From positions 1-63,116 of IMG/VR virus record IMGVR_UViG_3300004369_000014: 63,116 bases of DNA; one strand, given 5' to 3'. The stretch is from a virus. The position numbers and the translations under genes were made by a program. Of this stretch, positions 1,746 through 30,771 are shown piece by piece (positions within the stretch are counted from its first letter, which is position 1; every line of letters starts with the position of its first letter). The notes beneath the pieces were generated by a model. That model was not told the origin of the DNA, searched no databases, and was given only the letters and a program-made list of their open reading frames with translations.

Positions 1746-1748
1746 AAG

Positions 1749-13158: not shown

Positions 13159-13989
13159 TTGATTCTTGGACAAGAACAACAGAAAGAATATCTTTCTAAG
13201 CAATACCCGATGATTGCGACACCGTGTTATGGCGGTCTAGTCCACGAGCCGTATCTTCGTGGAATGACCAGCTTAGCCGGGGCAGCAGCAGGTATTGGTC
13301 TTGCTGTGAACATGGCAACGATAGTGAATGAAAGTCTGGTCACTAGAGCTCGTAATGAACTCGTTAAGTACCTTACGATGACTAACTGCACTCATCTTTT
13401 CTTTATCGACGCAGACATATCATTTACACCAGATGACGTAATTAGAACTATTCTTCACGACAAGGACGTAGTTGTAGGCGCGTATCCGCTTAAGAAAGTG
13501 AGATGGGACCAAATAGATACGTCCAAAGCAAGGTCTGCAGAGGATGTGCAGCGAATGGCCACGGACTATGTCATCAACATTAAATTTGCCGATGACAAGC
13601 AAAAAGAGACTGGACAAGTTCCAGTTGTTGATGGTCTGATTGAGGTACACGACGCTGGCACTGGTTTCATGTGTGTTAAGCGTCATGTCATCGAGAAAAT
13701 GATTGAAGCGTACCCGGAGTCTCACTACATGAAGGAACCAAAGCACGTTATACACGAGGGAGATGACTGTAAACGCTGGGCGCTGTTCGATACAATGATC
13801 GACGAGGATAATCGCTACTTGTCGGAAGACTACACCTTCTGCAGACGCTGGCAGATGCTCGGTGGAAAAATTTGGCTAGACCCCACGACTAGACTCTCTC
13901 ACATCGGCACTCACATGTTCGAGGGCCACTCTATGTTTGACATACATCAAACTGATGTCTCAAGCCCGCAAGGACTGATTGGTGGCTGA
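13159..13989 (+). CDS. GT-A-type glycosyltransferase-like protein
   Basis: 276 residues. MIATPCYGG, then ESLVTRARNELVKYL, then THLFFIDADISF (the DxD metal motif) and DVVVGAYPLKK define a GT2/GT-A nucleotide-sugar transferase fold; GTGFMCVKRHVIEKM and SEDYTFCRRWQMLGGKIWLDP give the acceptor loop and the ED catalytic region. Such proteins in phages modify virion proteins, host surface sugars or DNA bases. The start is TTG at 13159, with CGGAG seven bases before; the next ATG (13210) has no ribosome site. It overlaps the next glycosyltransferase and follows two fibre genes, so glycosylation of tail proteins is possible. Confidence 0.75.
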   Translation: MILGQEQQKEYLSKQYPMIATPCYGGLVHEPYLRGMTSLAGAAAGIGLAVNMATIVNESLVTRARNELVKYLTMTNCTHLFFIDADISFTPDDVIRTILHDKDVVVGAYPLKKVRWDQIDTSKARSAEDVQRMATDYVINIKFADDKQKETGQVPVVDGLIEVHDAGTGFMCVKRHVIEKMIEAYPESHYMKEPKHVIHEGDDCKRWALFDTMIDEDNRYLSEDYTFCRRWQMLGGKIWLDPTTRLSHIGTHMFEGHSMFDIHQTDVSSPQGLIGG

Positions 13990-16440: not shown

Positions 16441-17682
16441 TCATTTCTGATAGAAGTTCTTCTTGACGAAGTTCCGGCTAAAGCCCTTGTCAGTGTCGAG
16501 AAGGTACTCGCGGTCACCGATCAGTTCACCGCTCGGTCCGCTTGGTTGGCCACTGAGTGCCGCTCTCGCGGACTCTCCGATCCAGTTAGCGGCTTGTACC
16601 GCCACTGCTTTGCCCCACGTCGACCCTAGGGCAGAATAGCCCTTGACACTAGCGAACTCCCAGTCGTCTGGTAGACCTTGAATTCTTGCTGCCTCACGAT
16701 GGGTAATTCGTCTTGGCTGCGTCGGATGCACAACGTGTTCGAGAGCGCTACCTGTGAGAACGTGGCAATGAGAATTTGCGTCCCAGCGGGCTGGAAGAGA
16801 AAATCCCATGTAGAAGTCGTTCTCACGGATCTTCTCTTCTTTGTTGCTCCACGACTGAGGGAACTTGTCTCCGTTTTTTTCTACGGCAAGTTTTAGTGCC
16901 TCGTTGAGAGGCATCATCTGTTCCCAGCCTTCGTTACCGATGATGTCAAAGATTTCTTTGATTCTCTGCGACTCAAGATTATCTTTGTTCACGTGGCCAT
17001 CAACCAGTCCGCTTTGATTTCTTAGATGAGAAACGAACTTCGTCCCTTCGGAGCAGTACGGCTGCTTGTCCCACGTAATCTCAAGACGCTCGAGGTCACC
17101 GATCACATCCATCATCGTAGGCAGCTCTGCTGGGGTCTCGACGTGCGCGCCGAATGGCATACCTTGCTCTACAGCTACCCAGAAGTATCTCATTCGATAT
17201 GAGAATCCACCGACCTGGAGATTGTTGTGCTTGACGTGATACAGGTCGTACTTCTTTCCAGATAGCTCTTCTACCATGTCTCGGTACTGAACCATCACGT
17301 TGCGCCCCTGCGTGTACGCCTGCTGCACGCATTCGAAGATAATCATCTTCGGTTGAATCTTAGCAGCGTACTTCATAAACGCTCGTGTGTGCTCGTGCGC
17401 CTTAGCGTCTGGCCCTCTGTTAGCAGGGCCTGACCACAGCGACCAGCCAGAACACGGCGGGCAGCCAAGAACTACGTCAGCTTCTTGAGTAGGCCAGTCT
17501 TCGGGGTCGTCGGAGAAATAAGACGCCCAGTTGTCACCGAGGTGCTTTCTGTTTGCTTGAGCCACCGGATTACCGAAGTCCAGCGTGCCTGTCCGTAGTG
17601 ACATGTCAAACCCGGAGTTTACAAATCCAAGACTCATAAATCCAGCCAAGCCGTTGCAGTCGATAAAGTTTAGATCACTCAT
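16441..17682 (-). CDS. C5-cytosine DNA methyltransferase
   Basis: 413 residues. GCPPCSGWS carries the catalytic C77 (motif IV), FECVQ (E117) is motif VI in place of the usual ENV, YRMRYFWVAV is motif VIII, RRITHREAARIQGLPDDW is motif IX, and GKAVAVQAANWIG is motif X. SAM-binding motif I is the N-terminal CNGLAGFMSLGF. About 150 residues between VIII and IX hold the target recognition domain. It methylates a specific cytosine sequence, protecting phage DNA from restriction or marking it. With an hmC pathway in the same genome its target might be remaining cytosine. The start overlaps the upstream stop (TAATG). Confidence 0.9.
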   Translation of the reverse strand: MSDLNFIDCNGLAGFMSLGFVNSGFDMSLRTGTLDFGNPVAQANRKHLGDNWASYFSDDPEDWPTQEADVVLGCPPCSGWSLWSGPANRGPDAKAHEHTRAFMKYAAKIQPKMIIFECVQQAYTQGRNVMVQYRDMVEELSGKKYDLYHVKHNNLQVGGFSYRMRYFWVAVEQGMPFGAHVETPAELPTMMDVIGDLERLEITWDKQPYCSEGTKFVSHLRNQSGLVDGHVNKDNLESQRIKEIFDIIGNEGWEQMMPLNEALKLAVEKNGDKFPQSWSNKEEKIRENDFYMGFSLPARWDANSHCHVLTGSALEHVVHPTQPRRITHREAARIQGLPDDWEFASVKGYSALGSTWGKAVAVQAANWIGESARAALSGQPSGPSGELIGDREYLLDTDKGFSRNFVKKNFYQK

Positions 17683-17993
17683 TAGCCCTCCGAGTTCTTG
17701 TCATCAGAAATACCGACTTCATAGCCGCACGCGGCGTAACCCGCGATGTCTGTCCACGTGTCTGCTTGAAATCCGTAGTTTGACGCGTGGCGAGCAAGTT
17801 TTACGGCAATCATTGCCATTGCGACTTCTTCTCTTGTAAACTTTCTGCCAAAGATCACGCTCCACATCTGCGCGATTCTTCCGAAGTTTTCTTCAGGCCC
17901 ACCGTACTGTTTGTCTCGTTGGCCGGAGATGATCTTTGCAGCTTCAATAAGCATCTTCTCGCGGTCACTGACTTCTTTCTTAAGGCCGCTCAT
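17682..17993 (-). CDS. DUF6378-like protein
   Basis: 103 residues from ATG 17993, which overlaps the upstream stop (ATGA). AKIISGQRDKQYGGPEENFGRIAQMW, then REEVAMAMIAVKLARHA and DTWTDIAGYAACGYEV, is the pattern of the DUF6378 family, common in phages and without assigned activity. Soluble, helical, with acidic residues in a pattern reminiscent of all-alpha NTP pyrophosphohydrolases, but without a full motif. Co-transcribed with the neighbouring small genes. Confidence 0.7.
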   Translation of the reverse strand: MSGLKKEVSDREKMLIEAAKIISGQRDKQYGGPEENFGRIAQMWSVIFGRKFTREEVAMAMIAVKLARHASNYGFQADTWTDIAGYAACGYEVGISDDKNSEG

Positions 17994-18187
17994 GAGTCTC
18001 GTTTGACGCGTATCGTGCATCTTCCGACGTAATAGTCTCGATCTTTAGCGCGTTCTATGACTACCTCAGAATCAGGGGGTAGCAGCGGGCTAGAGCTCTC
18101 AGACACGACACCCCACTCGTACGTTAGCTGCTCTAGAACTTCAGACAGTGTATGCCCAGAAGTTTCTAAATTGACTAGGATTCGCAT
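17990..18187 (-). CDS. Hypothetical small protein
   Basis: 65 residues from ATG 18187, which overlaps the upstream stop (TAATG). MRILVNLETSGHTLSEVLEQL then a beta-rich segment SEVVIERAKDRDYYVGRCTIRVKR. Not recognised; no motif. Both ends overlap neighbours, which supports coding. Confidence 0.6.
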   Translation of the reverse strand: MRILVNLETSGHTLSEVLEQLTYEWGVVSESSSPLLPPDSEVVIERAKDRDYYVGRCTIRVKRDS

Positions 18188-18412: not shown

Positions 18413-18643
18413 TTAGATTCTTTTTTCTAACTTATACGGAGGGTGACGAGCTTCGTGTATTTCTGGAGTGATTTCATCGATAGTTTTCACGTAGACATCT
18501 CCTGAAATGACGCGCAGAACTTCTACCATTCTTCCGTTATGCAGCGTCCCCGCGTCTGTTGCGTACGCGTTTCTTTTCACGCGTAGAACCTGTCCCGGCT
18601 CTATAGCAGAAGGATCAACGTCTACCCAAGTTTCACTCGCCAT
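18413..18643 (-). CDS. Hypothetical small protein, SH3-like
   Basis: 76 residues from ATG 18643; the longer frame to 18859 is out of the question since it would cover the dUTPase gene. ETWVDVDPSAIEPGQVLRVKRNAY, then HNGRMVEVLRVISGDVYVKT, suggests a small beta-barrel (SH3/KOW-like) that might bind nucleic acid. No family named. Overlaps the upstream gene by 11 bases. Confidence 0.55.
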   Translation of the reverse strand: MASETWVDVDPSAIEPGQVLRVKRNAYATDAGTLHNGRMVEVLRVISGDVYVKTIDEITPEIHEARHPPYKLEKRI

Positions 18644-19121
18644 TGGCCAATTTTTCGATTGCCGGCGGGCATGAAACTTCTGGGCAAGAAGAAACGTCGT
18701 AATCGTCAAGAGCCCTAAAACACTTCTTGCACTTGACTCCGTCGTCAAGAACCCTGTAGCCCTTGCGCTGTCTTTCTGCGTTGACCTGCATTTTCTTGAG
18801 ATATTCTTCGTCAAGCTCCGCGTCTGTTGCGCCAGCGGCGCACAGGATGTTCGCGACAAAGTGAAGAACGTCTACACACTCCTTGACGATTTCTTTTCTA
18901 TCAGCGTACGGATTGTCGTGCTGCCAAGGCTTCCACGAGATCGCCTTACGAACCTCGGCGAGTTCATCATCGATAGCAAGCATGTTCCACCGAAGGTACT
19001 CGATGAGTTGAGTAAGATCTTCGGGCGCGTCGCTATGAAACACAGAATAGTCTGCGCCGTAGACATCGCGCTGAAGTTGAGACGTTTTCTCAAGCCAAGA
19101 GTTAAACAGATACGTTGTCAT
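18633..19121 (-). CDS. All-alpha dUTPase/dCTPase (T4 gp56-like)
   Basis: 162 residues from ATG 19121 (an in-frame TTG at 19136 is the alternative). The all-alpha NTP-pyrophosphohydrolase residues are E53 and E56 (DDELAEV), WKPW (63-66), E81 and D84 and H87 (KECVDVLHF), and the end NAERQRKGY. WKPW, the ExxD-x-x-HF helix and the N--RQ-RGY ending are shared with T4 gp56, which hydrolyses dCTP and dUTP to supply dCMP and keep cytosine out of DNA. A zinc-ribbon-like tail (C131, C134 and two further Cys) is added. Specificity for dCTP versus dUTP cannot be read from sequence. It fits an hmC pathway. Confidence 0.8.
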   Translation of the reverse strand: MTTYLFNSWLEKTSQLQRDVYGADYSVFHSDAPEDLTQLIEYLRWNMLAIDDELAEVRKAISWKPWQHDNPYADRKEIVKECVDVLHFVANILCAAGATDAELDEEYLKKMQVNAERQRKGYRVLDDGVKCKKCFRALDDYDVSSCPEVSCPPAIEKLANGE

Positions 19122-20145
19122 GTGAGTCCAATCCAATCGTTTGTAGTAGATGCCATATTGCGTTTTCTGGGTCTTTTATAGAAGACAGATAAGCAGACCG
19201 TTGCGCCTCAGCGAGATCGCGTCTTTCATCAACAGACATGTGTTCGACGGTCGCCGGTATCGCTGCCCACGCGTCCCCGAGCGCTAATGAATAGCGCCAT
19301 TCAGTGCATATAGGGAGTTGATGCTGCATCGCCTGAGAGTATCTACGCGACCACCAAGGAGCTCCAGATGGTCCTGGAGAAATAATAGCGCCGATGCACG
19401 AGCGCATGACCATGTCCGCGTCTACGTCTGACGACCCTTTGTTTTGCTTCATCAAAACGTAGTCGTTCTTCATCGTGCTCGACACAGACTTGAACCACTT
19501 AGTCTTATCGTTGTCGACGCACCACGATGAGCGAGAAAGGCTACTTGACGTAGCACGAGGCTCACGTAACCTAAACGCATCAAGATTCACGCCTCTGAGA
19601 TTACCTCTTGCCATCCCGAACAGCAGATTTTCAACCTCTTGCGTTTCCACGAATGGCGTGCTTGGGTACAAGGTCACAGTGTACCACTCGTACAGAAGAA
19701 ATTCAACTGCCTTCTCTACTTTAGCAAGAGCTTTTTTGTCTTCAAAGATTCTTGAGCGCTCTTTTCTCGCCGAGTACAGGGGCTTAAACAGAGAAAGAAA
19801 AGATTTGTCTACAGCCGTTAGATTTCTTCTAACTGAGCTGGGATCTGTAGTGTCTATAGCTAGAACTAAGCGACTCGGATCCGTGTTGATCAGCGTAGAG
19901 ATCACACTTAACGCTCCGTAAGCGTAATTAGCAGTCAAACTAAGAATAGGAGAAACTCCAACAATTACCTTATCAAAGGCAGTCAGATGCTCGTACCCCA
20001 TGTCTGCACTCGGGGCGCCTATGGTGACATCAACACCAGCATCACTAAGCACTGAGTGAATTTCTCCGCTAAACGAAGCAGATCTTTGTATCAAGTTAGG
20101 CGAGCACTGCGGCGCTGTCATGCCAGTGATGAAGACTGACGCCAT
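19102..20145 (-). CDS. GT-B-like protein, paralogue 2 (candidate base glycosyltransferase)
   Basis: 347 residues. It is a paralogue of the upstream gene: VFITGMTAPQ at its start aligns with ILMTGFTALQ there, and PWWSRRYSQAM (about 258-268) followed by LGDAW aligns with GWWRSRFMYAA followed by LGDAY. Fold looks like a GT-B glycosyltransferase (two Rossmann-like halves, a late WW-x-R signature). No named family; T4 alpha- and beta-glucosyltransferases are the functional analogues I would compare. The homology sets the start at ATG 20145, a 28-base overlap with the upstream gene. Glucosylation of hmC is inference from context. Confidence 0.55.
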   Translation of the reverse strand: MASVFITGMTAPQCSPNLIQRSASFSGEIHSVLSDAGVDVTIGAPSADMGYEHLTAFDKVIVGVSPILSLTANYAYGALSVISTLINTDPSRLVLAIDTTDPSSVRRNLTAVDKSFLSLFKPLYSARKERSRIFEDKKALAKVEKAVEFLLYEWYTVTLYPSTPFVETQEVENLLFGMARGNLRGVNLDAFRLREPRATSSSLSRSSWCVDNDKTKWFKSVSSTMKNDYVLMKQNKGSSDVDADMVMRSCIGAIISPGPSGAPWWSRRYSQAMQHQLPICTEWRYSLALGDAWAAIPATVEHMSVDERRDLAEAQRSAYLSSIKDPENAIWHLLQTIGLDSHDNVSV

Positions 20146-21353
20146 TCGTGCCCCCCATTTTTTGACAGTTTGTAACCTTTGTCTTCTGCAACAGCTCGGT
20201 TGATTATTTTGTTTACGTGCGAAACAAAAGAATCGTACGATGGCATATGAGCACGAAGCGTGTCTGCCTGCGCTGTTGCTGCCTGCTCGAGCTCAGAGTC
20301 GGACATCGACTCGACCTGCTTGATTGTAAGCTTGTACGCGTCACCAAGAGGCGCGCCTTCTCCCTTATCTGTAACCAAGATCGAACGGACTCGCGCTGCG
20401 TACATGAAGCGGCTTCTCCACCAACCGCTGCCTGCGTGCGGGTACGGAGGCGAAAGAATTCCCCAGTAGTTGTTGTAAAACGCTAGAACGTCTTCTTCGC
20501 TATCAAGCCGTTGACCGCCAAATTTCTTAATTAGCTTACGACTGCCAACAATTTCTACAGGCCACTCAGGATTCTTTTTCTCAAGCCACGTGTCGTGAGG
20601 CATAAGAGCGCCAAGAACCCATGCACGACTCTTCTGTTCTGCGGGCAGCGGCTCGCATGAGTTTAGGATGTCGTAGATTGTAGCGCTTGGATCGAGTGCT
20701 TCTATTCCTGCCATTTCCTTAGGCATTCTCTTTCGAACAAGAGATCTGTCGCCGAAGCTGTACATAGGGCATACTGGCACAAGGCCTCTTTCCCATCTGT
20801 CAGCAAGAAGCGCTCTACCGGACTCGACGAGCTGTCCTTCATATTCTCTAACATTGTCGTCATTGTCGTTAAAGAAGTATCTGCCAATGCCGCACTTCTT
20901 CTCCGCCTCGGGATTTGCCTTGACTATGCGATCGAGCGCTGCCTTTGCGTCTTCGTATGAGTAGTACGTCGCGTCTTCGCTACCACGCAGGGCAGAACCA
21001 GAGAGAAGATACTTGTAGAGTATCTCTGGGTGACGAACAAGTGAACGACATGCGTTGAATACCGAGGCAAACTGCCAATCGTCAAAAAATCCAACAGCGG
21101 GAAGACCGGAGCTCAGCGTATATAGTGCGCCCATAGCACCTTGACGGCCGTTCAAGGAGTTCAACGGACCTAGATTTACCCACGCCGCGTCGTAAGACGA
21201 AAGATCTTCGCCTGGAGTAACTCGTCTCCAGTCTACAGAGTGGCCACTCTCCTCGAGAGCTTTTACGATCGAGGCAGGTACGTCTATCTTTTTGATAGTG
21301 CGATGCTCTGTATTGATCTGCAGAGCAGTAAAGCCTGTCATAAGTATTTTCAT
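20118..21353 (-). CDS. GT-B-like protein, paralogue 1 (candidate base glycosyltransferase)
   Basis: 411 residues. KILMTGFTALQINT, a helix, SYDAAWVNLGPLNSLN and LPAVGFFDDWQF form an N-terminal Rossmann half like that of T4 beta-glucosyltransferase in topology; WPVEIVGSRKLIKKFG and SGWWRSRFMYAARVRSILVTD (about 305-325) form the second half. AAGGAAG precedes the ATG. Paralogous to its downstream partner, and both lie 1.4-4.9 kb from the C5-methyltransferase. Two enzymes could attach sugars in different linkages or build a disaccharide, as in T-even phages. This role is inferred. It could instead glycosylate a protein. Confidence 0.55.
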   Translation of the reverse strand: MKILMTGFTALQINTEHRTIKKIDVPASIVKALEESGHSVDWRRVTPGEDLSSYDAAWVNLGPLNSLNGRQGAMGALYTLSSGLPAVGFFDDWQFASVFNACRSLVRHPEILYKYLLSGSALRGSEDATYYSYEDAKAALDRIVKANPEAEKKCGIGRYFFNDNDDNVREYEGQLVESGRALLADRWERGLVPVCPMYSFGDRSLVRKRMPKEMAGIEALDPSATIYDILNSCEPLPAEQKSRAWVLGALMPHDTWLEKKNPEWPVEIVGSRKLIKKFGGQRLDSEEDVLAFYNNYWGILSPPYPHAGSGWWRSRFMYAARVRSILVTDKGEGAPLGDAYKLTIKQVESMSDSELEQAATAQADTLRAHMPSYDSFVSHVNKIINRAVAEDKGYKLSKNGGHEWRQSSSLA

Positions 21354-21371
21354 TGACTTCCTTTCGACTAT

Positions 21372-21410
21372 GCAAGATGGCCGCCTGCGCTAGGCAGGCG
21401 ACCATGTTGC
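21372..21410 (-). terminator. Long hairpin after the SSB gene
   Basis: GCAA-g-ATGG-c-CGCCTGC, loop GCTAG, GCAGGCG-a-CCAT-g-TTGC: a 15-pair stem with three single mismatches, 14 bases after the SSB stop on the - strand. There is no U-run, so it may stop transcription poorly and instead protect the 3' end of the SSB message. Just downstream is the AAGGAAG ribosome site of the next gene. Confidence 0.65.
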
Positions 21411-21423
21411 GACTGTCAGTTGA

Positions 21424-22020
21424 TCAGAACGGCGCTGCCGGCGGCGTCGATGCGTCCTGAGCGGGAGCAACCTGTGCTTCAACAGGCGCCGGTGCCGGAG
21501 CAGGCGCGGGAGCAGCAGCTTCTGCTACTGGAGCCGGTGCCGGTGCCGGGGCAGGGGCTGGAGCGGGAGCCGGAGCAGCTGCAACAGCAGGAGCGGGCGA
21601 CGCAGCGGCAGCAGGCGCGACCGCATAGTACGCCTTGATCTCGTTCTTCTTTTGTCCCTGCCAAGTACGCGAGCCGACCTGTGCGCGGAAGCTACGACCC
21701 TTGAGAGTCTGCTCAATCTGAGCGTTGCTCGGGTTAGTCGAGAAGTAGTCTCTGTTCAGGCCGAGGGCATTCATCTTGCGGAAGAAGATACCGAGCGCAG
21801 ACGGATTGTCTGTCGAAACAACGAGGTTGTCCCAGACAAGTCGTTTTGCGTGCGCGCCGGACTGAACCTGCGCCTTGACGGCGAACATCGTCTTTCCAGT
21901 CTGCGTGACCTTAGCCTGTGCTTCTACGATCGTCAGATCGTAGTCGCCGTCCGGAAGCGGGTCGTAGTTTCCTACGTCACCTGCGTCCTTGATGAGATCT
22001 CCCCAATTAAGTGAGCTCAT
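21424..22020 (-). CDS. Single-stranded DNA-binding protein (phage type) with Ala/Pro tail
   Basis: 198 residues. Residues 1-130 (LPDGDYDLTIVEAQAKVTQTGKTMFAVKAQV, LVWDNLVVSTDNPSALGIFFRKMNALGL, LKGRSFRAQVGSRTWQGQKKNEIKAYY) form a compact OB-fold SSB of the type found in actinophages next to Sak4 and RecB-like genes. The rest is a low-complexity Ala/Pro tract of about 65 residues ending TPPAAPF. The terminal Pro-Phe recalls the IPF end of bacterial SSB but lacks the Asp run. GGAGACATATC precedes the ATG. Binds ssDNA in replication and recombination. A strong hairpin follows the gene. Confidence 0.8.
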   Translation of the reverse strand: MSSLNWGDLIKDAGDVGNYDPLPDGDYDLTIVEAQAKVTQTGKTMFAVKAQVQSGAHAKRLVWDNLVVSTDNPSALGIFFRKMNALGLNRDYFSTNPSNAQIEQTLKGRSFRAQVGSRTWQGQKKNEIKAYYAVAPAAAASPAPAVAAAPAPAPAPAPAPAPAPVAEAAAPAPAPAPAPVEAQVAPAQDASTPPAAPF

Positions 22021-22060
22021 GATATGTCTCCTTTGTGTAGTTGATTACTTACTAACATGG

Positions 22061-22804
22061 TCACGACTGCTTCGGACCAAACACGAGGTCGAGCATCGCT
22101 TCAACCCCGAGATCTTTTTGCTCTACTACCTTACCGAGTCGGCCCTGCACTCGTTCGCCGGCTTCATGCTGCGCCGTGCGCTCGACATACATGCGCCGAG
22201 CCTTGTACGGGGGCTGCGTAGGATCTTCATTGTGAAACTCCTCGACTGACAGAGCGCCGAGAATGTCGTAAAAGTACGGAGCTTGAATGGCAAGCTGGCC
22301 CTGAAGGTACGGACGGTAGCGACCGTCTTGGCCCTGACGCGCCATTGCAGTCAAGACAACGGCCTCAAGAGGCGCAGTTGGGTGCATCGTAAGGTCGCGA
22401 AGATCGCGAAGCAGTGCACCCATGTGGCGAAGAAGCTCACCCCACTGCTGCATCTGCATCTGATTCTTACCGGCGATGTTGTCGACGCACTTTACTTGAA
22501 GCTCAGAAACTGAGTCGATGATCAGTGACTTGAACTGGTGCTTGCCGAGCTGTAGCCACTGGTACGCCTTGAGAACCGTATCGTATTCAACGACGTTCAC
22601 GACACATGTGTCCCAGGTGCCATCTGCTACGGGCGGCTCTTCGCGCAACGGATCCCAGTACTTTACATTGATTGGCAAGAATCTGTGTCCGCCTTCAACG
22701 TCGAGCATCAATCGAGGGTACGGAGCAGTCACTGCAAAGGTCGACTTACCGACCTTAGACTCTCCATAGACCATGATTGTCAGCGATCTTTGTACTCCTG
22801 ACAT
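22061..22804 (-). CDS. Sak4-like RecA-fold ATPase
   Basis: About 247 residues from ATG 22804 (GTG 22810 possible). Walker A GESKVGKST near residue 14, Walker B SLIIDSV with Asp near 97, and a MARQGQDGRYRPYLQGQ segment. This is the phage Sak4/Rad51-like single-strand annealing ATPase family, usually beside SSB as here. It acts in recombination-dependent replication and repair. No RecA C-terminal domain. The GTG would overlap the RecB-like stop; AAGGAAG favours the ATG. Confidence 0.8.
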   Translation of the reverse strand: MSGVQRSLTIMVYGESKVGKSTFAVTAPYPRLMLDVEGGHRFLPINVKYWDPLREEPPVADGTWDTCVVNVVEYDTVLKAYQWLQLGKHQFKSLIIDSVSELQVKCVDNIAGKNQMQMQQWGELLRHMGALLRDLRDLTMHPTAPLEAVVLTAMARQGQDGRYRPYLQGQLAIQAPYFYDILGALSVEEFHNEDPTQPPYKARRMYVERTAQHEAGERVQGRLGKVVEQKDLGVEAMLDLVFGPKQS

Positions 22805-22806
22805 AG

Positions 22807-23766
22807 TCACTCACTTCCTTTTATCTCTGATGATTGATAGTAGCCGTACGGGTCGTCTACCTTGTATAGCTCTGTGATCGCGTGTTCGGCAGCGCTTCCG
22901 TCGTCGAACAGAGGGCAGATCCCAAAGAATTGGCACTTCCACTTGCAATCTCGGCTGGGACGAGGATACGCCACAAAGTGGTGATCTCCTCCTTCATCCA
23001 GCGCCTTTCTCACGCTCAGCATGTCGCCGATCGTTCCGTGTATCCGATTCCAAAATGCGCGTAAAGCAAAAGAGTTATGTCGGACTTCAAACTGATCATA
23101 GAAAGGAGGCTTAGCGTTGGCTGTCCTCTTTACTTTCTTCAGCATTGTGAAGATGCCGCCCTCACAGCGCTCGCCTTCCTTGTTCTGCGCGGCCTCGAGA
23201 AGCATGTACGTAAGTATTTGCTCGTTCATATGGGCAAGGCTCGCAAACTCCGCGAACGATCCGCCAACTGTCTTAAAGTCTCTAAACATGCGAACGCCAT
23301 CGGCTTTGCGACGAACACGCATGTCGAGCTTGCCTTGAAGCTCAACCTGGCCGTCGAATAGAGGTAGACTGATAATTTCTTCTGTAGAAATCATCTCGAG
23401 TTCAGCGTCAATGCCGTTTTCATCTACCCACTGCAGATATCCTTCGAGCATGATTCTTCCAAGTTCAGCCTCGGTCTCAAGCTCAACGGTGTCGCGGTAG
23501 CTGTCGATCAATGCTTGCTTGTCTGCTTGAACGTACTTTGCGTACGCTTCAAGAAGCGGCGTGCCGGTCGAGTAATACTCGTCAAGTGCGGCATGAACTC
23601 GTGACCCAAGAGCAAGAGCTCCAGTGAAATTCTCAGTCTGGGGCTTCAGCCGTCTGTAGTACGCTAGCCACCACTTTCTTCTACAGTCTTTGAAAGTCTG
23701 TATCTCAGAATTAGAAAGTCTGATGGGCTCTTTAGAAAGAGTTACCGGGGTTTCTGTGATTGTCAC
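22807..23766 (-). CDS. Cas4/RecB-like PD-(D/E)XK exonuclease
   Basis: 319 residues. LSNSEIQTFKDCRRKWW and GSRVHAALDEYY (H58) are the N-terminal motifs; GKLDMRV (D148) and FRDFKTV (D163, K165) form the nuclease active site. C28 together with C274, C278 and C284 make a probable [4Fe-4S] cluster as in Cas4 and AddB. It degrades DNA ends, working with the Sak4 ATPase and SSB. GTG at 23766 starts one base inside the helicase stop (TAGTG). No CRISPR array is nearby, so an adaptation role is unlikely. Confidence 0.85.
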   Translation of the reverse strand: MTITETPVTLSKEPIRLSNSEIQTFKDCRRKWWLAYYRRLKPQTENFTGALALGSRVHAALDEYYSTGTPLLEAYAKYVQADKQALIDSYRDTVELETEAELGRIMLEGYLQWVDENGIDAELEMISTEEIISLPLFDGQVELQGKLDMRVRRKADGVRMFRDFKTVGGSFAEFASLAHMNEQILTYMLLEAAQNKEGERCEGGIFTMLKKVKRTANAKPPFYDQFEVRHNSFALRAFWNRIHGTIGDMLSVRKALDEGGDHHFVAYPRPSRDCKWKCQFFGICPLFDDGSAAEHAITELYKVDDPYGYYQSSEIKGSE

Positions 23767-25565
23767 TATGATCCAGTCTTTTCTTGAAGAAGCATCTTCA
23801 GTAGTTGATCCTTGTCTTTTACAACTTGCTCAAAGTTGTCAGCCTTCGAATCGAGAACTTGAATAACTCGCTCTTCGATTGTTCCGTCGGTGACATAGTC
23901 AGTGATCACGATACTGTCGTGAATTTCACTTCCAATTCTGTGCACTCTGTCTAGTGCCTGCTTATAGTCGACCAGTGACCAGGGACGCTGAAGCATGATT
24001 AGCCGACGCGCCGCCGTTAGGGTCACACCGACGCCACCCGCTTGAGCGGTGAATAGAACCCACTTAGTAGTGCCATTCTGAAAATCGTCGATCGCCTTTT
24101 GACGTTCTTCTTCGGTCTGCGCGCCGGTGATTAGACCATGTGGAATTTTGGCCTTCTCAAGACGAGCGCTAAGAAGCTCGATGAGCTGCCTAGATACTGC
24201 GCACACAGCAACGGAGTCTCCTTCAAAGTCGCCATTTTCAATGTCGCTCATGATCGCATCGATCTTGCACGAAGGTTCGGAAAGACGAAGACTTATTTCT
24301 CCGGAAATCTCGTCCACATCTAGAGTAGCGTAAGAACTCGCGAACTGAAGAAGACGGATAGTTTGAGTGAGAGGGCTAGGCGCCGCGATTGCGTCGTCAC
24401 CCTCGAGAACAGCAATCATCGAGTCGCGCATTTCTTCGTACGCCTTGCGCTGCTTAGTCGACATTTCGACGTCGCGTCGTTCTTTAATCACTGGAGGCAA
24501 CCAAGGTAGCACTCGTGCCTTAAGCATTCGTCGCATTCTTGGATTGATAGCCGCGTAGAACTCGTCGGTCATATGAGGCTTAACGCCAAGCACCATCATG
24601 CCACCGAACGCGTTGAGCATGGTATCAACCATGCGGTCGATCCAGCGAGTCTTGCTCGGCCATTCTTCCGGAGATAGCCAGTGCAAAATCGTCCAAAGAT
24701 CAAGAACGTTGTTTGCAATCGGAGTGCCTGTCAGCGCGAATCTAATGTCTGCATCGCCGGTCGCTGCCCACAGCGCGCGAGTCTGCTTGCTCTTTGGATC
24801 CTTTGACCTATGGATCTCGTCCGCAACGACTGACTTAAAGTCGATCTTGTTTAACTCGCGAATATGAACCTCGCAGCGATTCTCGCTTACCTTGTCGTCG
24901 TGGCCGCCGCAGTCTACGCAGCGCGCGAGTGCAACAGATCCATAAGGCGCAAGTCTTGAATGTGCTCTCAGCGACTCCCAGTTGATGACGTAGACATCTA
25001 CATCTTCTTCGGCGAACTGTTTGCGCCGTAGAGCCGCGGAACCACTGATGACCTGAACCTTGACTCCAGGCCACCACATCTCGAACTCTCTCTTCCAGTT
25101 TTTCTTGAGAGTGTTCGGGCAGACTACAAGAGCTGGAAAGACTTGTTCTCCTCTAGTGAAAAGCTCAAACAGCGCGCGAATAGTCTGCGCTGTCTTCCCT
25201 AGCCCGGGTTCGTCAGCAAGAAGAGCGCGTCGTGCAGCGGCAAGAAACTGCACGCCGGCACGTTGATGTGGGAACAGCTTTTCGTCTCCACCAGCGTCTT
25301 CGAGCTCACGTAGCTCGTTGCATGGGGCAACTCTTGTTGCTAGTTCGTTTTTTGCCCACTCGGTGAGGTTTGGCCCAATCTGAAGATCAGACTTAAAGAC
25401 CGACCGAAGAGCTAGGCACGTTGCCCAGCCGAGTGGCGCCTTCCAGTGCTTGTCAGAGGCCGACCACGTCGCTCCTGGGATACTTTTACACAGTTCTTTA
25501 TACCGCCACTCAGTGTCAATTTTGATCGACTTACCGTCGGCAGACAACTCAACGTCAACTGGCAC
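23766..25565 (-). CDS. SNF2/SWI-like DNA helicase with an inserted zinc finger
   Basis: 599 residues. A 90-residue HARP-like N-terminal domain (WRYKELCKSIPGATWSASDKHW), then FPHQRAGVQFL, Walker A DEPGLGKTAQ (about 117-126), VVADEIHRSKD (DEAH-type), FALTGTPIANN, and the C-terminal VLFTAQAGGVGVTLTAA and LDRVHRIG motifs of SF2/SNF2 ATPases. A Cys cluster (CVDCG...CEVH, about 218-235) is inserted before motif II. Such proteins remodel stalled forks, like SMARCAL1 or T4 UvsW. GTG start with AGAGG seven bases before. An extended -10 promoter lies 30 bases upstream. Confidence 0.9.
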   Translation of the reverse strand: MPVDVELSADGKSIKIDTEWRYKELCKSIPGATWSASDKHWKAPLGWATCLALRSVFKSDLQIGPNLTEWAKNELATRVAPCNELRELEDAGGDEKLFPHQRAGVQFLAAARRALLADEPGLGKTAQTIRALFELFTRGEQVFPALVVCPNTLKKNWKREFEMWWPGVKVQVISGSAALRRKQFAEEDVDVYVINWESLRAHSRLAPYGSVALARCVDCGGHDDKVSENRCEVHIRELNKIDFKSVVADEIHRSKDPKSKQTRALWAATGDADIRFALTGTPIANNVLDLWTILHWLSPEEWPSKTRWIDRMVDTMLNAFGGMMVLGVKPHMTDEFYAAINPRMRRMLKARVLPWLPPVIKERRDVEMSTKQRKAYEEMRDSMIAVLEGDDAIAAPSPLTQTIRLLQFASSYATLDVDEISGEISLRLSEPSCKIDAIMSDIENGDFEGDSVAVCAVSRQLIELLSARLEKAKIPHGLITGAQTEEERQKAIDDFQNGTTKWVLFTAQAGGVGVTLTAARRLIMLQRPWSLVDYKQALDRVHRIGSEIHDSIVITDYVTDGTIEERVIQVLDSKADNFEQVVKDKDQLLKMLLQEKTGS

Positions 25566-25594
25566 TATGATACCTCTTCGTCATTTCGTACTTG

Positions 25595-25600
25595 ACTATA
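25595..25600 (-). promoter_or_regulatory. Extended -10 promoter before the helicase gene
   Basis: TGGTATAGT on the - strand, the same TGG-extended form as the one at 11888. It lies in the 86-base gap between the resolvase and helicase genes; predicted start about 25588, 23 bases before the GTG. No -35 matches. Confidence 0.55.
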
Positions 25601-25651
25601 CCACATACTACACGTAAATAGCTGAAGAACAGAAGTTTTTTTGTAGTATGC

Positions 25652-26116
25652 CTATTCTACAAGTTTTCTTGGCACCCAGCCATTCTTAACGGCGTACAGA
25701 AGACCGTGTCGCATCGCGTCCAACGCGTGACCTTCTCCGCCTCTATGCCAATACCCGAGCTTCTTAAGCGCGTCGTTCGGGAACATTCTCTTTGCGTCTG
25801 ATGGAGACTGAAACACGATCTTGTCGATGTCAAGTCCTTCTGAGTTGACAAGATACTTTAGAATCCCAATTTGCTCGAGACTGTACGGCGCCTGCGAGTT
25901 CTTGACCGTCTGGGCGTTGATCGTGAATCTTTCGCACACGACGGCGATTTCTGCTTCGAATATTCTTGCGTTACGCAAGGTGTTGAGTATCGGGACGTGG
26001 TAGTCTTCAAACATATACTCGCCGGAATCGACAAGCTCAGGAGCTTCGCCCTTGTTGTATGTAAAGCTGGCTATGCCGCTTTTCTTACCAGGATCGACAG
26101 CAAGAATTATTTTCAT
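25652..26116 (-). CDS. RuvC-like Holliday junction resolvase
   Basis: 154 residues from ATG 26116, overlapping the upstream stop as ATGA. IILAVDPGKKSG (D8), AVVCERF (E62) and GEGHALDAMRHGLLY (H130, D133) give the RuvC/RNase H-fold acidic residues. The gene resolves branched DNA before packaging. Slightly shorter than bacterial RuvC. Next to the DNA polymerase and helicase as expected of a replication module. Confidence 0.85.
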   Translation of the reverse strand: MKIILAVDPGKKSGIASFTYNKGEAPELVDSGEYMFEDYHVPILNTLRNARIFEAEIAVVCERFTINAQTVKNSQAPYSLEQIGILKYLVNSEGLDIDKIVFQSPSDAKRMFPNDALKKLGYWHRGGEGHALDAMRHGLLYAVKNGWVPRKLVE

Positions 26117-26433
26117 GTCCACACCACCCTCGAGACTCCAGCTCTGCCAAGAATACTTTTGCACTTTTTGCACGGCTCAGACGGAGCTGGAGACCCGTCT
26201 GCGGACACCCTAGCGATGTAGACATTGGAGCCAGACGCTAGAGTTCCGGCGGCGGCTATTGCCGCAAACTCAGCATGAACGTGCGCAGTTCTCCACGAAA
26301 CTCTCGGGTCACCGATCTTCTTATTTGTAGTGATCGAGAGTATCTTTCCGTTGCGAACAACAACGCAGCCGTGTTTATGTCTGCACTTGCTCTTCTTTGC
26401 AGCGTCTACAGCGAGCTCGAGGTACCTGTTCAT
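26113..26433 (-). CDS. Cytidine/deoxycytidylate deaminase-family protein
   Basis: 106 residues from ATG 26433, overlapping the polymerase stop (ATGA). HVHAEFAAIA (H53, E55) and PCKKCKS (C88, C91) are the zinc-binding deaminase motifs; the CDA fold is otherwise minimal. Its substrate (a cytidine nucleoside, nucleotide or RNA base) cannot be told. It is distinct from the larger dCMP deaminase at 28243, so the phage has two. Confidence 0.8.
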   Translation of the reverse strand: MNRYLELAVDAAKKSKCRHKHGCVVVRNGKILSITTNKKIGDPRVSWRTAHVHAEFAAIAAAGTLASGSNVYIARVSADGSPAPSEPCKKCKSILGRAGVSRVVWT

Positions 26434-28256
26434 CCGTACTTGTCGCCCCACGTCTCAAGAGGCCCGTCGATGCCAGCAGTAAGCGGCACCGCCCATCCTT
26501 CAGATGTTGTCATGCACTCTTTGACTGCGTTCATTACCTCGGTGACGTCTTTCCTTGGGGCTTGTAGAACGATCTCGTCGTGCACTGGCACAATGAGAAG
26601 CTCGGTAAGATCCGCTTGATCGAGTTTGACCAAGTTAGCCTTGAACACTTCAGCAGCTCCACCCTGAATTAAGTAATTCACGAGAGTGTACACGCGGTCT
26701 TCGTCACACGGGAGCCGGCGGCCAGTCCAGGTGTAGACGTAACCTTGGCCTTCGGTCTTTAGACGACGCATCCCGATGTCTTCAATCTGTCTTTGGAAGT
26801 ACGCCATTCCCGGAAAGCGATTGTCAAACGCGTCTGAGACTGCGCGCATTTGAGGCTCAGCAACTCCGGCAGTCAGTGCTTGTTTCGCAACACCGGCTCC
26901 GTAGAGTCTGCCGTAAACTGTACCTTTGATCAATCCGCGACGTTTATCTGACTTTGTCATTGACGGGTCGTTGTAGATCTCGCGGCCAATCTCCGTGAAC
27001 GGGTCAGACCCTGTCGCGTCAGCGTGATTGAAAAGATTGATGAGGTTTGGATCGCTTGAAAGACTTGCAAACATGCGAAACTCGACCTGGTCAAGGTCTG
27101 ATGTGATGATGACATGGTCTTCATCTTTGGGGATAAACGCGCGGCGTACTACGTCGTCTCCCTTCGGCAGAGTCTGGAGCGCAGGATTAGTGATCGACAT
27201 GCGACTTGTTCGTGCGCCAAGAGTCTTAACAGATGGATGAACTATCCCGTCTATCGACTCGGTCAGAAAGTTACTGAAATACGTGTTTGCGAGCTTGTCG
27301 GCTTTTCTCTGCTTAAGTACTGTGTCGGCAAGAGCCGAAATTTCCGCGTTGTCGTTTATAGACAAAAGCTTTAGCTGATCTTTAGTGCACGACTTTTGAC
27401 CAGTCGGAGTGTATTCAGTAATTTCAGCACCAAGTGACTCAAACAGTCTGACGAGTTGAACGTTGCTGGTTATCGACACGCCGTTGTACGTGTCTTTAGC
27501 CCATTTCTTTACAGACTCGGTATACGCTGTGAGCTCGTCGTACTTCTTCTTGGAGTACTCGAGATCTACACGTGCGCCGTTGATCTCCATGCGCGTGACA
27601 ATCTTTCTTGCGGCCATCTCGAGTTCGTAGGCTTTACGGTACGGGCCTTCGGGCCCGCACTTATCCCAAAACAGCTCCCAAAGACGAGTCGTCAACACAC
27701 AGTCGAGAGCGCCGTACGACCAGTACGGTTGAAAGTTTGTAGGTACAGTTCCCCATGTCCAACCGTTCTTGACGAGCTCAACGTCAAGAGTTTCTTGTAA
27801 GGCAACAGCACGGCTATCAACGTGCAGCGCGGCAAGACGCTTTAGAGCACCAGAGCCAAGTGGATCAACAACGTGGGCCATAATCATTGTGTCGTGCGCA
27901 CGATGCCAAGGAATGTCCCAGCGTGACTGAATAGCAAACCATCTTGCCTCGAACGCAATGTTGTGACATATCAGCGGGCCGTCAAACTTGTCCATTGCCT
28001 CGTAGAATACGCCTGACCATTCTTCCCAAGGTATTGACCAGCCTTGTTCTCCGTCTCCAACCTGCACAAGACGAAGTCTTCCATGCCACGGCGACAGCGC
28101 GTGATCTCTCGGATTGCCCGGCAACTCGCCTGTTTCTGTGTCGACTGATATAGCGTTGTGAGGTCGACGTTGGCCAAGCCAGTGAATAAAATCTGCAGCT
28201 TTCTGCGAAGTATCAACAAGATGGAGTTGCACGTTTGATAGATCAGCAGTCGCCAT
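26430..28256 (-). CDS. polA: Family A DNA polymerase with 3'-5' exonuclease
   Basis: 608 residues from ATG 28256 (GGAG five bases before; GTG 28262 is possible). SVDTETGELPG (exonuclease I; D39, E41), a polymerase motif A DLDQVEFRMFASL, a motif B helix RRGLIKGTVYGRLYGAG and motif C VPVHDEIV. In the motif B helix the residue that decides dideoxy sensitivity is Tyr, as in T7 polymerase, rather than Phe as in E. coli Pol I. No 5'-nuclease domain is present. It copies the phage genome, with the helicase, SSB and resolvase around it. If hm-dCTP is made, this enzyme must accept it. Confidence 0.95.
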   Translation of the reverse strand: MATADLSNVQLHLVDTSQKAADFIHWLGQRRPHNAISVDTETGELPGNPRDHALSPWHGRLRLVQVGDGEQGWSIPWEEWSGVFYEAMDKFDGPLICHNIAFEARWFAIQSRWDIPWHRAHDTMIMAHVVDPLGSGALKRLAALHVDSRAVALQETLDVELVKNGWTWGTVPTNFQPYWSYGALDCVLTTRLWELFWDKCGPEGPYRKAYELEMAARKIVTRMEINGARVDLEYSKKKYDELTAYTESVKKWAKDTYNGVSITSNVQLVRLFESLGAEITEYTPTGQKSCTKDQLKLLSINDNAEISALADTVLKQRKADKLANTYFSNFLTESIDGIVHPSVKTLGARTSRMSITNPALQTLPKGDDVVRRAFIPKDEDHVIITSDLDQVEFRMFASLSSDPNLINLFNHADATGSDPFTEIGREIYNDPSMTKSDKRRGLIKGTVYGRLYGAGVAKQALTAGVAEPQMRAVSDAFDNRFPGMAYFQRQIEDIGMRRLKTEGQGYVYTWTGRRLPCDEDRVYTLVNYLIQGGAAEVFKANLVKLDQADLTELLIVPVHDEIVLQAPRKDVTEVMNAVKECMTTSEGWAVPLTAGIDGPLETWGDKYG

Positions 28257-28725
28257 TGTCACTCCATATTACGTCAAGTTTGATGCCGCACGCGCGCAGA
28301 TAGTCGAAAACTACTTCAGGCTCGCGATGACGGTCTTCAGGTCTGACGACGCACACAACCTTGGACACTCCAGAGTTGCTGACTAGCTTCGCACACTGCA
28401 TACACGGCGCGCTTGTTACGTACAGCGTTCCGTTTAGAACGCTAGACCTGTCGACATACATCAACGCATTTGCCTCGGCGTGTATCGCCGGACAGGCGTC
28501 GTAGAGATTATCGAGAGCCGATTCTCCACGCGCTCTCTGGCACCAGTTGATACAGTCTCCCTCATGGGGCCAACTGGCCGCTGGCCCATTGTACCCCGTT
28601 GCGCATATTCTTTGGTTTTCTGAAACTATTACTGCGCCGATCTGGGCTCTAGAGCACCTAGATCTTCTACTAACAGTTTCAGCAACGCTCAACCACGTTT
28701 CATCCCACGTTGGTCTGTTGATCAT
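28243..28725 (-). CDS. dCMP deaminase
   Basis: 160 residues from ATG 28725 (GTG 28731 is in frame). AIHAEANALMY (H82, E84) and APCMQCAKLV (C108, C111) bind zinc; RSRCSRAQIGAVIV and ICATGYNGPA are the dCMP-deaminase family motifs. It converts dCMP to dUMP. In T4 it feeds dTMP synthesis; here no classic thymidylate synthase is visible in the window, so host ThyX or ThyA would have to use the dUMP. It overlaps the polymerase start by 14 bases. Confidence 0.9.
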   Translation of the reverse strand: MINRPTWDETWLSVAETVSRRSRCSRAQIGAVIVSENQRICATGYNGPAASWPHEGDCINWCQRARGESALDNLYDACPAIHAEANALMYVDRSSVLNGTLYVTSAPCMQCAKLVSNSGVSKVVCVVRPEDRHREPEVVFDYLRACGIKLDVIWSDNGDC

Positions 28726-28727
28726 TG

Positions 28728-28925
28728 TCACTCGTCATCTTCGTCCGTTACCTCAAGCATCGAGGATATTTCTTCAGTCATTCCCATAAATAGCATTCTC
28801 GCTACTAAGTCTAGCCCATCTCGTCTGCTAAAGCCAGCCTTACGCAAAGTCGTATAGACCTCGTGCATTCCGATAGCGGCTTCTTCCATCGGTGACGCGT
28901 ACTCTTCTTCCCAGTCTTCGCTCAT
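28728..28925 (-). CDS. Hypothetical small acidic protein
   Basis: 65 residues. Acidic ends (SEDWEEEY, EVTDEDDE) around a helical GMHEVYTTLRKAGFSRRDGLDLVARML. Not recognised. It overlaps both neighbours (ATGA at its start; four bases at its end) and is therefore translated with the nucleotide-metabolism genes. Possibly a small adaptor; no evidence beyond composition. Confidence 0.6.
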   Translation of the reverse strand: MSEDWEEEYASPMEEAAIGMHEVYTTLRKAGFSRRDGLDLVARMLFMGMTEEISSMLEVTDEDDE

Positions 28926-29785
28926 TGACTTGCCTTTCGTGCGTTTTTGGCTGCTGCGTCAATCATCACGTCGGCGTACCAAGAAGCATTCTGCGACAAT
29001 CTTGGCAAGATTCTATCATCGGTGACACCGAGAAGGGCGTCAAGAGCCTGCGTCTCTACTTCGTCCCACGACGATCCTTGTATGAAAGGAATCTTCTGGC
29101 TTGAAGAAGTTTTAGTCAAGTTTTCGGCAACTTCGTAATGTTGCTCATAGATATGAAGAGAACCGACATGATGAGAGTACGTCCCAGGCTGAATTCCTAG
29201 AACACTGCACATCGCTAGTTGCACCCTAGTGAACTGAAAGAAATCGTAAGCAGCGCCAAGCCAAACGTCATTCGACCGCATGTAGACGCTCATGTTAAGC
29301 TTTCCGTTGCGAATTCTAAACTGATGAAGAATAGTGCAAGGGTAGTCGCGCTTGTTTGGCTGATTGTCGTACTCCGGGTTCCATATCGTGATGACAGCCT
29401 GACGGGTGTCAGAATCGTTCTTTAACTTGTCGACAGCTTCTTTGTACTGGCCTTTTGTTCTTAGACCGTAGGCTCCGTGAAATATACCGTTATCCTCTGC
29501 GTAGTTTATAAACTGAGGTCCAACGGCGATCACAAGCTCAGGCATAGAAACCCCAGAAAGAAGTTGACAAGCTTCAACTGCACCGATCCCTGGGACGGCT
29601 CCACGGCCAACACCGAGCGGTAACGTCGAGTAGACGTTGTCGATAAAAATTGTCGCGTCTTCAATTTCGCGAGTCTTCATACCGCGTGGAGAGACAGTTC
29701 GTCCGTTACGAAGAACATGGTGCACAAGATCTACGTAGCCGTTTACTCCGTCTTCGATGTGAATAGAGGTTACGGAAGTATCCAA
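28922..29785 (-). CDS. ThyA-family enzyme, probably dCMP hydroxymethylase (T4 gp42-like)
   Basis: 287 residues. A thymidylate-synthase fold: DSDTRQAVI, catalytic C150 in YPCTILHQF, MRSNDVWLG and VGSLHIYEQH. In thymidylate synthases a fixed Asn lies 31 residues after the Cys (C146 and N177 in E. coli) and selects dUMP. Here residue 181 is Asp. T4 dCMP hydroxymethylase has Asp there (C148, D179), and also shares Cys-Thr after the nucleophile, MRSNDV and VGSLH. So the enzyme most likely hydroxymethylates dCMP. The start is TTG at 29785 with AAAGG before it, inside the end of the kinase gene. Alternative: a thymidylate synthase with altered specificity. Confidence 0.8.
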   Translation of the reverse strand: MDTSVTSIHIEDGVNGYVDLVHHVLRNGRTVSPRGMKTREIEDATIFIDNVYSTLPLGVGRGAVPGIGAVEACQLLSGVSMPELVIAVGPQFINYAEDNGIFHGAYGLRTKGQYKEAVDKLKNDSDTRQAVITIWNPEYDNQPNKRDYPCTILHQFRIRNGKLNMSVYMRSNDVWLGAAYDFFQFTRVQLAMCSVLGIQPGTYSHHVGSLHIYEQHYEVAENLTKTSSSQKIPFIQGSSWDEVETQALDALLGVTDDRILPRLSQNASWYADVMIDAAAKNARKASQ

Positions 29786-30771
29786 TTTACGTACCTTTCG
29801 TCGATGCCGTACGCGTAGCTTTGCATCGCTTCTCCGTACAGCTTTTTGTCAGCATGATGAAATCTTCTTACGTATTGCGGATGCGGAAAAACAATGTACT
29901 CCTGTGCGCACAGAGCTTTAGTCTTGACGTGCCGATCAGCAAGTCTACCAAGAACGATAATCTTTGGCCAATGCAGCACTTCAAGAAGAATGTCTAGTCT
30001 TTCGCCGGAAAAATCTTCAGAGTTGATAATTCCTACGTCTCGCCAGAGAGGCTCTGGAAGAGCGTTTAACAGATAGTCCCCAGAGTTACCGCCGACTGGC
30101 ATGAACGGAAGTATCGTCTCGGTCGGGTCTTTTCTCTTATCGCCAATAAGAAGAACTCTAGGGCGCGCTGGGCCGATGTACTCTGGAAACGCGGCGATAC
30201 CTGCCGCGTCATCGGCCCGCTCTGCCGCGGCAGTAATGATCGCAGACGCAACACTTTTAACGTACTTCTCTCCGTCAGGCACCTCTATCTTTGCCTGAAT
30301 AGAGTGAGTTTTTGCCTGTGTAGACTCGTAAAGAGACAGAATTTCTTCCATTTCTTCGACGTCTACAAAATCATCACCACGAGAAAGAATTCTCTTCTTG
30401 ATTACGTCAAGTGGCTGATAGACCCAGAACTGGGCCATACCGCGAGACGCCATAAACAGCTCAACCCAGCGCCAGCCGGCGATGCCCAGAAGGCCATAAC
30501 CGTCTGTGTTTGTCTGCGGGCGCTTGAGCTTGGCGTAGGTGCACTCGCCCCAGTGCCATCGATCCGCTACGGCAAGTTCCTTAGTCCAGTCGATGCTTTC
30601 AATATCAACCGCGTACTCGTGCAGCACCCAGCGACGAGTTAGCTCCTCGGGTCTACCCTTGTGAAACTCGTGAATACGAGAAGCAGGTGACTCAGAGCGT
30701 AGTTGCTCTTTTATCGCCGCGGCTATTGAACTTTTGCCAGAAGCGTCGGTGCCTTCAAGAACAATGAACAT
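29770..30771 (-). CDS. Deoxynucleoside monophosphate kinase fused to a UDG-like domain
   Basis: 333 residues. Residues 1-185 are a thymidylate-kinase-type dNMP kinase: FIVLEGTDASGKSS (P-loop 7-15), ADRWHWGE (the DR motif) and a lid SRGDDF. Residues about 198-310 resemble the uracil-DNA-glycosylase superfamily: VLLIGDKRKDP, PFMPVGGNSGDYLLNAL, a mid strand IIVLGRLADRHV and FPHPQYVRRF (the HP-containing end motif). No catalytic Asp/His pair is certain, so the domain may bind rather than cut. A kinase able to phosphorylate hm-dCMP (T4 gp1) would be the next step after the enzyme encoded downstream. Confidence 0.75.
   Translation of the reverse strand: MFIVLEGTDASGKSSIAAAIKEQLRSESPASRIHEFHKGRPEELTRRWVLHEYAVDIESIDWTKELAVADRWHWGECTYAKLKRPQTNTDGYGLLGIAGWRWVELFMASRGMAQFWVYQPLDVIKKRILSRGDDFVDVEEMEEILSLYESTQAKTHSIQAKIEVPDGEKYVKSVASAIITAAAERADDAAGIAAFPEYIGPARPRVLLIGDKRKDPTETILPFMPVGGNSGDYLLNALPEPLWRDVGIINSEDFSGERLDILLEVLHWPKIIVLGRLADRHVKTKALCAQEYIVFPHPQYVRRFHHADKKLYGEAMQSYAYGIDERYVNWILP

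Follow-up and report, generated by a model that had tools for sequence, protein, structure and literature searches.

A conserved actinophage gene block that probably makes glycosylated hydroxymethylcytosine DNA with an uncharacterised family of putative DNA glycosyltransferases

DNA with glycosylated 5-hydroxymethylcytosine (hmC) is known chiefly from T4-like phages, and the T4 pathway comprises gp42, gp1, gp56, Cd and the alpha- and beta-glycosyltransferases (GTs). The IMG/VR virus record IMGVR_UViG_3300004369_000014, a linear stretch of 63,116 bases (the window), carries a gene block whose predicted products resemble this set: a dCMP hydroxymethylase with the corresponding Asp, a gp56-type pyrophosphatase, a dCMP deaminase, a kinase and two GT-B enzymes similar to DNA GTs (GT1 and the larger GT2). 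We consider it likely that the block makes glycosylated hmC DNA, as a T4-like pathway in an actinophage with an uncharacterised DNA-GT family. When compared with T4, however, the window hydroxymethylase is nearer MilA than gp42 among solved structures, the kinase is thymidylate-kinase-like, the GTs are not detectable from BGT by sequence, and the genes lie in one syntenic block that also has a C5-cytosine methyltransferase and a family A polymerase. The functions had been named in an original prediction made from the letters of the window; all their open reading frames (ORFs) were found where it had placed them, on the minus strand, as are all the block genes given below.

Parts of this arrangement are found in other described systems. 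The arabinosylation cassette of RB69 also joins a ThyA-family hydroxymethylase to sugar genes, and the CMP hydroxymethylases MilA and BcmA have in common with the window enzyme the Asp that goes with cytosine. Metaviral 5hmC GTs of C5-MTase/5mYOX phages, reportedly the subject of work by Pyle et al. in 2024, are said to be diverse and to have sugar-making partners; in contrast to those phages, hmC would here be made as a nucleotide and not by oxidation of 5-methylcytosine in DNA. Actinomycetia phage DSL-LC01 has the same block in the same order, with a hydroxymethylase 63% identical to that of the window, but a UDP-galactopyranose mutase (UGM) gene lies between its GT2 and GT1 genes, and its GT2 is 30% identical to the window GT2. 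The authors who described DSL-LC01 assigned its UGM a role at the host cell wall and made no mention of hydroxymethyl (PMC10611076).

The ThyA-fold enzyme (28922–29785, 287 amino acids) matches Pfam Thymidylat_synt (PF00303, 1.3e-24), and its closest solved structure is the CMP 5-hydroxymethylase MilA (5b6d). Thymidylate synthase (TS) position 177 decides between dCMP and dUMP, and in a MetaGPA survey of 433 sequences no two positions were more strongly linked to cytosine-modified contigs than 177 and 147 (PMC8670742). In the alignment, the window enzyme has Asp at TS-177 (T4-179), where thymidylate synthases have Asn177, and Thr at TS-147 (PCT), where they have His (PCH); the Cys of PCT aligns with T4 Cys148. 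It also has Asp at T4-145, three residues ahead of the catalytic Cys, where synthases have Leu, and Ser where MilA has Ala176. Asp186 of MilA, or Asp179 of T4, marks cytosine substrates, Ser marks deoxyribose enzymes and MilA Ala176 goes with a ribose substrate (PMC5175136). In T4, Asp145 activates the water from which the hydroxyl of the hydroxymethyl group derives (PMC6400193). At the Ala176 position the window enzyme departs from MilA and agrees with the deoxyribose enzymes. The equivalents of D145 and D179, and the Ser, are kept by all of the relatives (69 distinct sequences). The Asp at T4-145 is also found in T4-type gp42 proteins and is absent from phage thymidylate synthases, which in the same alignment read ALPPCH and have N at the specificity position. 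In the SPO1-type dUMP hydroxymethylase the Asp that activates water is likewise present, and position 177 is, as expected, Asn. The enzyme is therefore very probably, as predicted from its residues, a dCMP hydroxymethylase, and the Asp that the original prediction had read in this ThyA-fold protein is indeed at the specificity position.

Two alternatives bear on this enzyme. Databases label the orthologues of the block genes thymidylate synthase, thymidylate kinase and dCMP deaminase, and the gene is the sole ThyA-family member in these contigs (ThyX was searched for in them and not found), as would fit an ordinary thymidylate synthase among genes of the dNTP pool, with the pathway over-read. 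We give this very little credence, since the Asp-for-Asn replacement is universal among the relatives, PCT replaces PCH, and the enzyme scores far under the cut-off of every curated thymidylate synthase equivalog in NCBIfam. According to the second alternative the enzyme is a dCMP methylase making 5-methyl-dCMP, as reported for XP12-type phages, which would leave no hydroxymethyl group to glycosylate. The N177D exchange alone converts thymidylate synthase to a dCMP methylase (cited in PMC8670742). However, the T4-145 Asp unites all the relatives with two kinds of hydroxymethylase and separates them from the synthases, the synthase C-terminal motif was found in 0 of the 69, the closest solved structure is a hydroxymethylase, and the sugar genes would serve no purpose; a methylase is thus quite improbable.

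The proposed primary hmC-DNA GT is GT2 (20118–21353; PHROG_14998, function unannotated), proposed from its fold model and from the context of its homologues; GT1 (19102–20145) is a paralogous, fast-diverging GT assigned by fold model and paralogy. Both proteins had zero matches in Pfam and NCBIfam, and PDB sequence profile searches gave nothing usable. The earlier reading of two paralogous GT-B-like proteins was borne out by profile comparison (hhalign, E 1e-34) and by structure prediction, with AlphaFold models of predicted local distance difference test (pLDDT) 86.6 and predicted template modelling score (pTM) 0.85 for GT2, and pLDDT 93.3 and pTM 0.91 for GT1. A comparison of predicted structures with BGT had been suggested as a check; when it was run, T4 BGT was the top VIA-align match of GT1 (1nzd, Z 18.1, 3.9 Å, 298 residues), followed by the selenosugar synthase SenB at 16.8, and the tied-top match of GT2 (1j39, Z 16.6, 3.9 Å, 301 residues). 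T4 AGT was also among the structural matches of the GT models. By sequence, the GT2 and GT1 profiles were not significant against BGT (hhalign probability ~1%). In a single MAFFT alignment the invariant GT2 residues D92 and R315 fell on BGT D100 and R269, with GT1 D98 one column off; GT1 D98 was paired with BGT D100 in a non-significant profile comparison, and these correspondences are a lead only.

As a single query GT1 found no relatives in viral contigs, and an alignment query found 75 loci. Where pairs of hydroxymethylases are 68–72% identical, the median identity of GT1 is 39.5% and GT2 keeps pace with the hydroxymethylase, which suggests that GT1 is under pressure to change.

GT2 relatives were detected in 59 of the 50,697 phage records searched, and full-length relatives were found only in phages. 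They occur in Aeromonas phages (phiAS4 and others), Stenotrophomonas phage IME13, Erwinia phage FBB1, Morganella/Providencia Gualtarvirus, Gordonia phages, DSL-LC01, two Manatee Spring phages and phage C48C1. In 84,980 bacterial and archaeal species genomes, a search limited by its patterns gave 151 pattern matches, none of which was confirmed. Short, weak Vibrio phage matches were left out of these groups, because they cover 18–19% of the query; one of them lies by 7-deazaguanine and NAMPT genes.

The T4-like phages phiAS4 and FBB1 have a thymidylate synthase plus a second, gp42-type ThyA protein, and in both GT2 directly follows UGM. In Morganella phage Rgz1 (L302, 2863–6267) the GT2 homologue lies between an arabinose-5-phosphate isomerase and an NDP-sugar enzyme, within a homologue of the RB69 cassette (50–84% identity for the neighbouring proteins), and the hydroxymethylase of this phage is 81% identical to RB69p048. 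Some Tevenvirinae groups, partly including Morganellaceae phages, have arabinose genes without a known arabinosyltransferase (PMC8056088), and the GT2 homologue is a candidate for the missing enzyme in Morganellaceae phages. RB69 itself differs: its proposed arabinosyltransferase, ORF003c, has no blastp match to GT2 (E 1e-2 / 1e-3), and GT2 finds nothing in the RB69 genome. The window differs from RB69 in turn, as no arabinose-5-phosphate isomerase was seen in it and no NTP_transferase was found there.

Phage C48C1 (Kyanoviridae; L301, 2086–5533) had no ThyA-family match and looked like a counter-example until the neighbour of its GT2 proved to be Tet_JBP. Its Tet_JBP oxygenase, GT2 homologue and UGM are encoded by three overlapping genes, a candidate operon for a furanosyl-hydroxymethyl-pyrimidine. 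A C5-methyltransferase was searched for in C48C1 and none was found, which makes hydroxymethyluracil a possible modified base in this phage. The UGMs of DSL-LC01, FBB1/phiAS4 and C48C1 are 25–43% identical across these settings, suggesting that the pairing of GT2 with UGM is old or arose repeatedly.

Each GT2-bearing genome checked therefore has a route to a hydroxymethyl-pyrimidine, be it a dCMP hydroxymethylase or, in C48C1, Tet/JBP. This bears on the possibility that hmC is made and that the GT-B enzymes glycosylate other targets, for example virion proteins or the host envelope. A GT-B fold says nothing about the acceptor, structural scores almost as good are reached by bacterial GTs such as SenB and PimA, and two more GT-like ORFs (13159 and 13979) lie in the window outside the block. 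Nevertheless, hydroxymethyl-pyrimidine enzymes accompany GT2 in every full-length lineage checked, even where Tet/JBP has taken over from the hydroxymethylase; the GT2 relatives lie in a replication/nucleotide operon by the dCTPase and not among structural genes; and one homologue is inside the RB69-type arabinose cassette. We thus judge other targets unlikely, and glycosylation of hydroxymethyl-pyrimidines in phage DNA by GT2-family enzymes is the simplest account. What is new is a GT family not recognised by family databases whose relatives stand beside sugar-making genes in unrelated phages.

The block is read from 30771 down to ~14928 as a minus-strand replication/nucleotide operon, in the order kinase, ThyA-fold enzyme, dCMP deaminase, family A polymerase, small deaminase, RuvC-like protein, helicase, PD-(D/E)XK nuclease, RecA-like protein, single-stranded DNA-binding (SSB)-like protein, GT2, GT1, dCTPase/dUTPase, DUF6378 protein, C5-methyltransferase, pyrimidine-dimer glycosylase-like protein and WhiB. 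Megablast of the block against phages gave zero matches, so that searches at the protein level were required. By these the block is conserved in DSL-LC01 and many IMG/VR contigs, its order of genes being repeated across too many contigs to be due to chance. In Gordonia phages the block lies in two separate halves: Phendrix has both, and in Sixama and GMA2 the GT half was found and hydroxymethylase genes were also matched. The host would be a freshwater actinobacterium, as judged by WhiB, the relationship to Gordonia phages and the host predicted for DSL-LC01.

The slot after the RecA-like gene carries sugar-type genes, of changing composition, in all 28 hydroxymethylase loci in which it is visible. 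GT2 and/or GT1 occupy it in 23 of the 28. In the other five (L023, L036, L037, L056 and L072) it holds a substitute cassette (18168–20697 in L037) that encodes a 415-amino-acid unknown protein without a family, an APH-like kinase and a HAD-like phosphatase; all four searched contigs of these five loci have a sugar nucleotidyltransferase. The contigs of L262 and L264, with a similar cassette type, also have one, and in L262 (2723–6007) and its kin the sugar nucleotidyltransferase is followed by GT1. Cassettes of the L037/L262 type look like a self-contained NDP-sugar route. A third type, GT2-UGM-GT1, is found in DSL-LC01, L061, L250, L256 and L258. The slot cassettes are interchangeable. No sugar nucleotidyltransferase was found in the window (63 kb) or in two contigs of the GT2/GT1 type, and no UGM was found in the window record, which is possibly a fragment; a host NDP-sugar is thus the likely donor. 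Nothing points specifically to glucose as the sugar. That the functions form one pathway, which the original prediction had drawn from T4 biochemistry, is supported by the conserved synteny, by the sugar-type genes in the same slot of all 28 loci and by the presence of GT2 homologues in phages with gp42-type hydroxymethylases.

The supporting nucleotide enzymes named earlier were likewise recovered. The P-loop nucleotide kinase, a proposed hmdCMP kinase (29770–30771; phrog_761 thymidylate kinase, 2e-11), has a thymidylate-kinase-like N-terminal half, for which the Pfam match is weak (E 0.003, under cut-off) and the PDB profile match firmer (yorR 2axp, 2.7e-9). Its gene overlaps the start of the hydroxymethylase gene and is directly upstream in 74 of the 75 loci with that side visible. 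The dCMP deaminase (28243–28731; PF00383, 1.6e-20; phrog_174 dCMP deaminase, 6e-44) is just downstream of the hydroxymethylase in 71 of 79 loci. The dCTPase/dUTPase (18633–19136; dUTPase_2, PF08761, 2e-11) is a distant homologue of T4 gp56, with 28% identity over 118 amino acids (E 1e-10) in direct comparison, and 78% identical to its DSL-LC01 counterpart; its homologues include plain dUTPases, and dCTP is a predicted substrate. The family A DNA polymerase lies at 26430–28262 (the DSL-LC01 orthologue is annotated DNA polymerase I).

Homologies, active-site residues, folds, synteny and co-occurrence were computed, and from these we infer the substrates, the order of steps, the degree of substitution, the sugar and a purpose against restriction, as follows. 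The 28922 enzyme would convert dCMP and methylene-tetrahydrofolate to 5-hydroxymethyl-dCMP, which the 29770 kinase would phosphorylate and a host NDP kinase would then complete to hmdCTP. The 18633 dCTPase/dUTPase and the 28243 deaminase would drain dCTP and feed dCMP/dUMP, and the phage polymerase would consequently incorporate hmC. GT2 would add a sugar to the hydroxymethyl group on finished DNA, and GT1 may add a second sugar or modify a subset of sites. The modification would serve as defence against restriction.

A different origin of hmC, by action of the C5-methyltransferase and a 2-oxoglutarate (2OG)-Fe(II) oxygenase after replication (the TET-type route), has in its favour that a C5-cytosine DNA methyltransferase, noted in the original prediction, is indeed present in the block (16441–17682; PF00145, 6e-22), and that eight 2OG oxygenase-like ORFs lie at 1092–9241. 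None of the oxygenases of the window reaches the Tet_JBP cut-off, however (best 20.5 bits vs. 34.9); they fit PF13640 better and lie outside the conserved block, and there were zero Tet_JBP matches in eleven related genomes. We consider this route extremely improbable here. The methyltransferase gene is retained in the block, and its PPC motif is present in 52 of 54 relatives; this conservation suggests partial substitution of cytosine by hmC, or another role for the methyltransferase.

Several observations weigh against glycosylated hmC as the product of the block. GT-B folds are common, and for GT2 the selenosugar synthase SenB (Z 16.3) is tied with T4 BGT. The window has none of the sugar-making genes of the kinds searched for (UGM and nucleotidyltransferase), and it is probably a fragment of a larger genome, related contigs reaching 110–131 kb. 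Acceptance of hmdCMP by the kinase is a proposed role. The C5-methyltransferase would, it seems, have little to do if all cytosine were hmC. A tree of the ThyA family was too deep to resolve, had some incomplete rows and was not used.

A wider proposal is more tentative, and we offer it as a possibility that may well not hold: (i) GT2 and GT1 would form a phage-specific class of hydroxymethyl-pyrimidine DNA GTs, which would take furanoses or pentoses from donors such as UDP-galactofuranose or UDP-arabinose wherever the phage supplies them; (ii) the acceptor base would be reached by several routes (dCMP hydroxymethylase in actinophages and T4-like phages, Tet/JBP in a Kyanoviridae phage); and (iii) sugar cassettes would be swapped in one slot, and the hypervariable second enzyme would change the glycan to escape defences.

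If glycosylated hmC is indeed the product, the syntenic block would extend such DNA to viruses of Actinobacteria, namely a sizeable freshwater actinophage group and cultured Gordonia phages, and would explain sequences currently labelled thymidylate synthase and hypothetical protein. In unrelated phages, members of the GT2 family lie with UGM, with a Tet/JBP gene or in the arabinose cassette of RB69 type, and these links make it a testable DNA-glycosylation candidate, possibly for furanosyl-DNA, in phages without a known arabinosyltransferase. Such enzymes would also be useful as reagents that label 5hmC, and the modification would matter for the resistance of these phages to restriction and CRISPR.

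The remaining features of the operon are a RecA/Sak4-like AAA protein (22061–22810; PF13479 AAA_24, 2e-18) and a putative SSB-like protein (21424–22020), whose label derives from its position: in most loci its gene separates GT2 from the RecA-like gene. A second small CMP/dCMP-deaminase-family protein (26113–26451; PF00383, 3e-12), absent from the original prediction, is encoded between the RuvC-like and polymerase genes and was seen in 34 of the loci first examined. The C-terminal part of the kinase (29773–30189), fused to the P-loop kinase, comprises ~140 conserved residues that match neither Pfam nor PDB profiles; a suspected uracil-DNA-glycosylase-like domain was unsupported by both searches. 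The DUF6378 protein (17682–18020; PF19905, 7e-27) adjoins the dCTPase and the C5-methyltransferase in many relatives, and its family is labelled phosphofructokinase in PHROGs, a label that looks doubtful for a 112-amino-acid protein. The two GT-like ORFs outside the block (13159–14887) lie just past WhiB; one is Anp1-like, under cut-off, and the other is of the GT4 family (PF00534). The eight oxygenase-like ORFs are spread over the two strands; six exceed the PF13640 cut-off, one is a TauD and one is weak. They have among them a glutathione-peroxidase-like ORF (182) and a DUF6065 ORF (2453), and their density is unusual.

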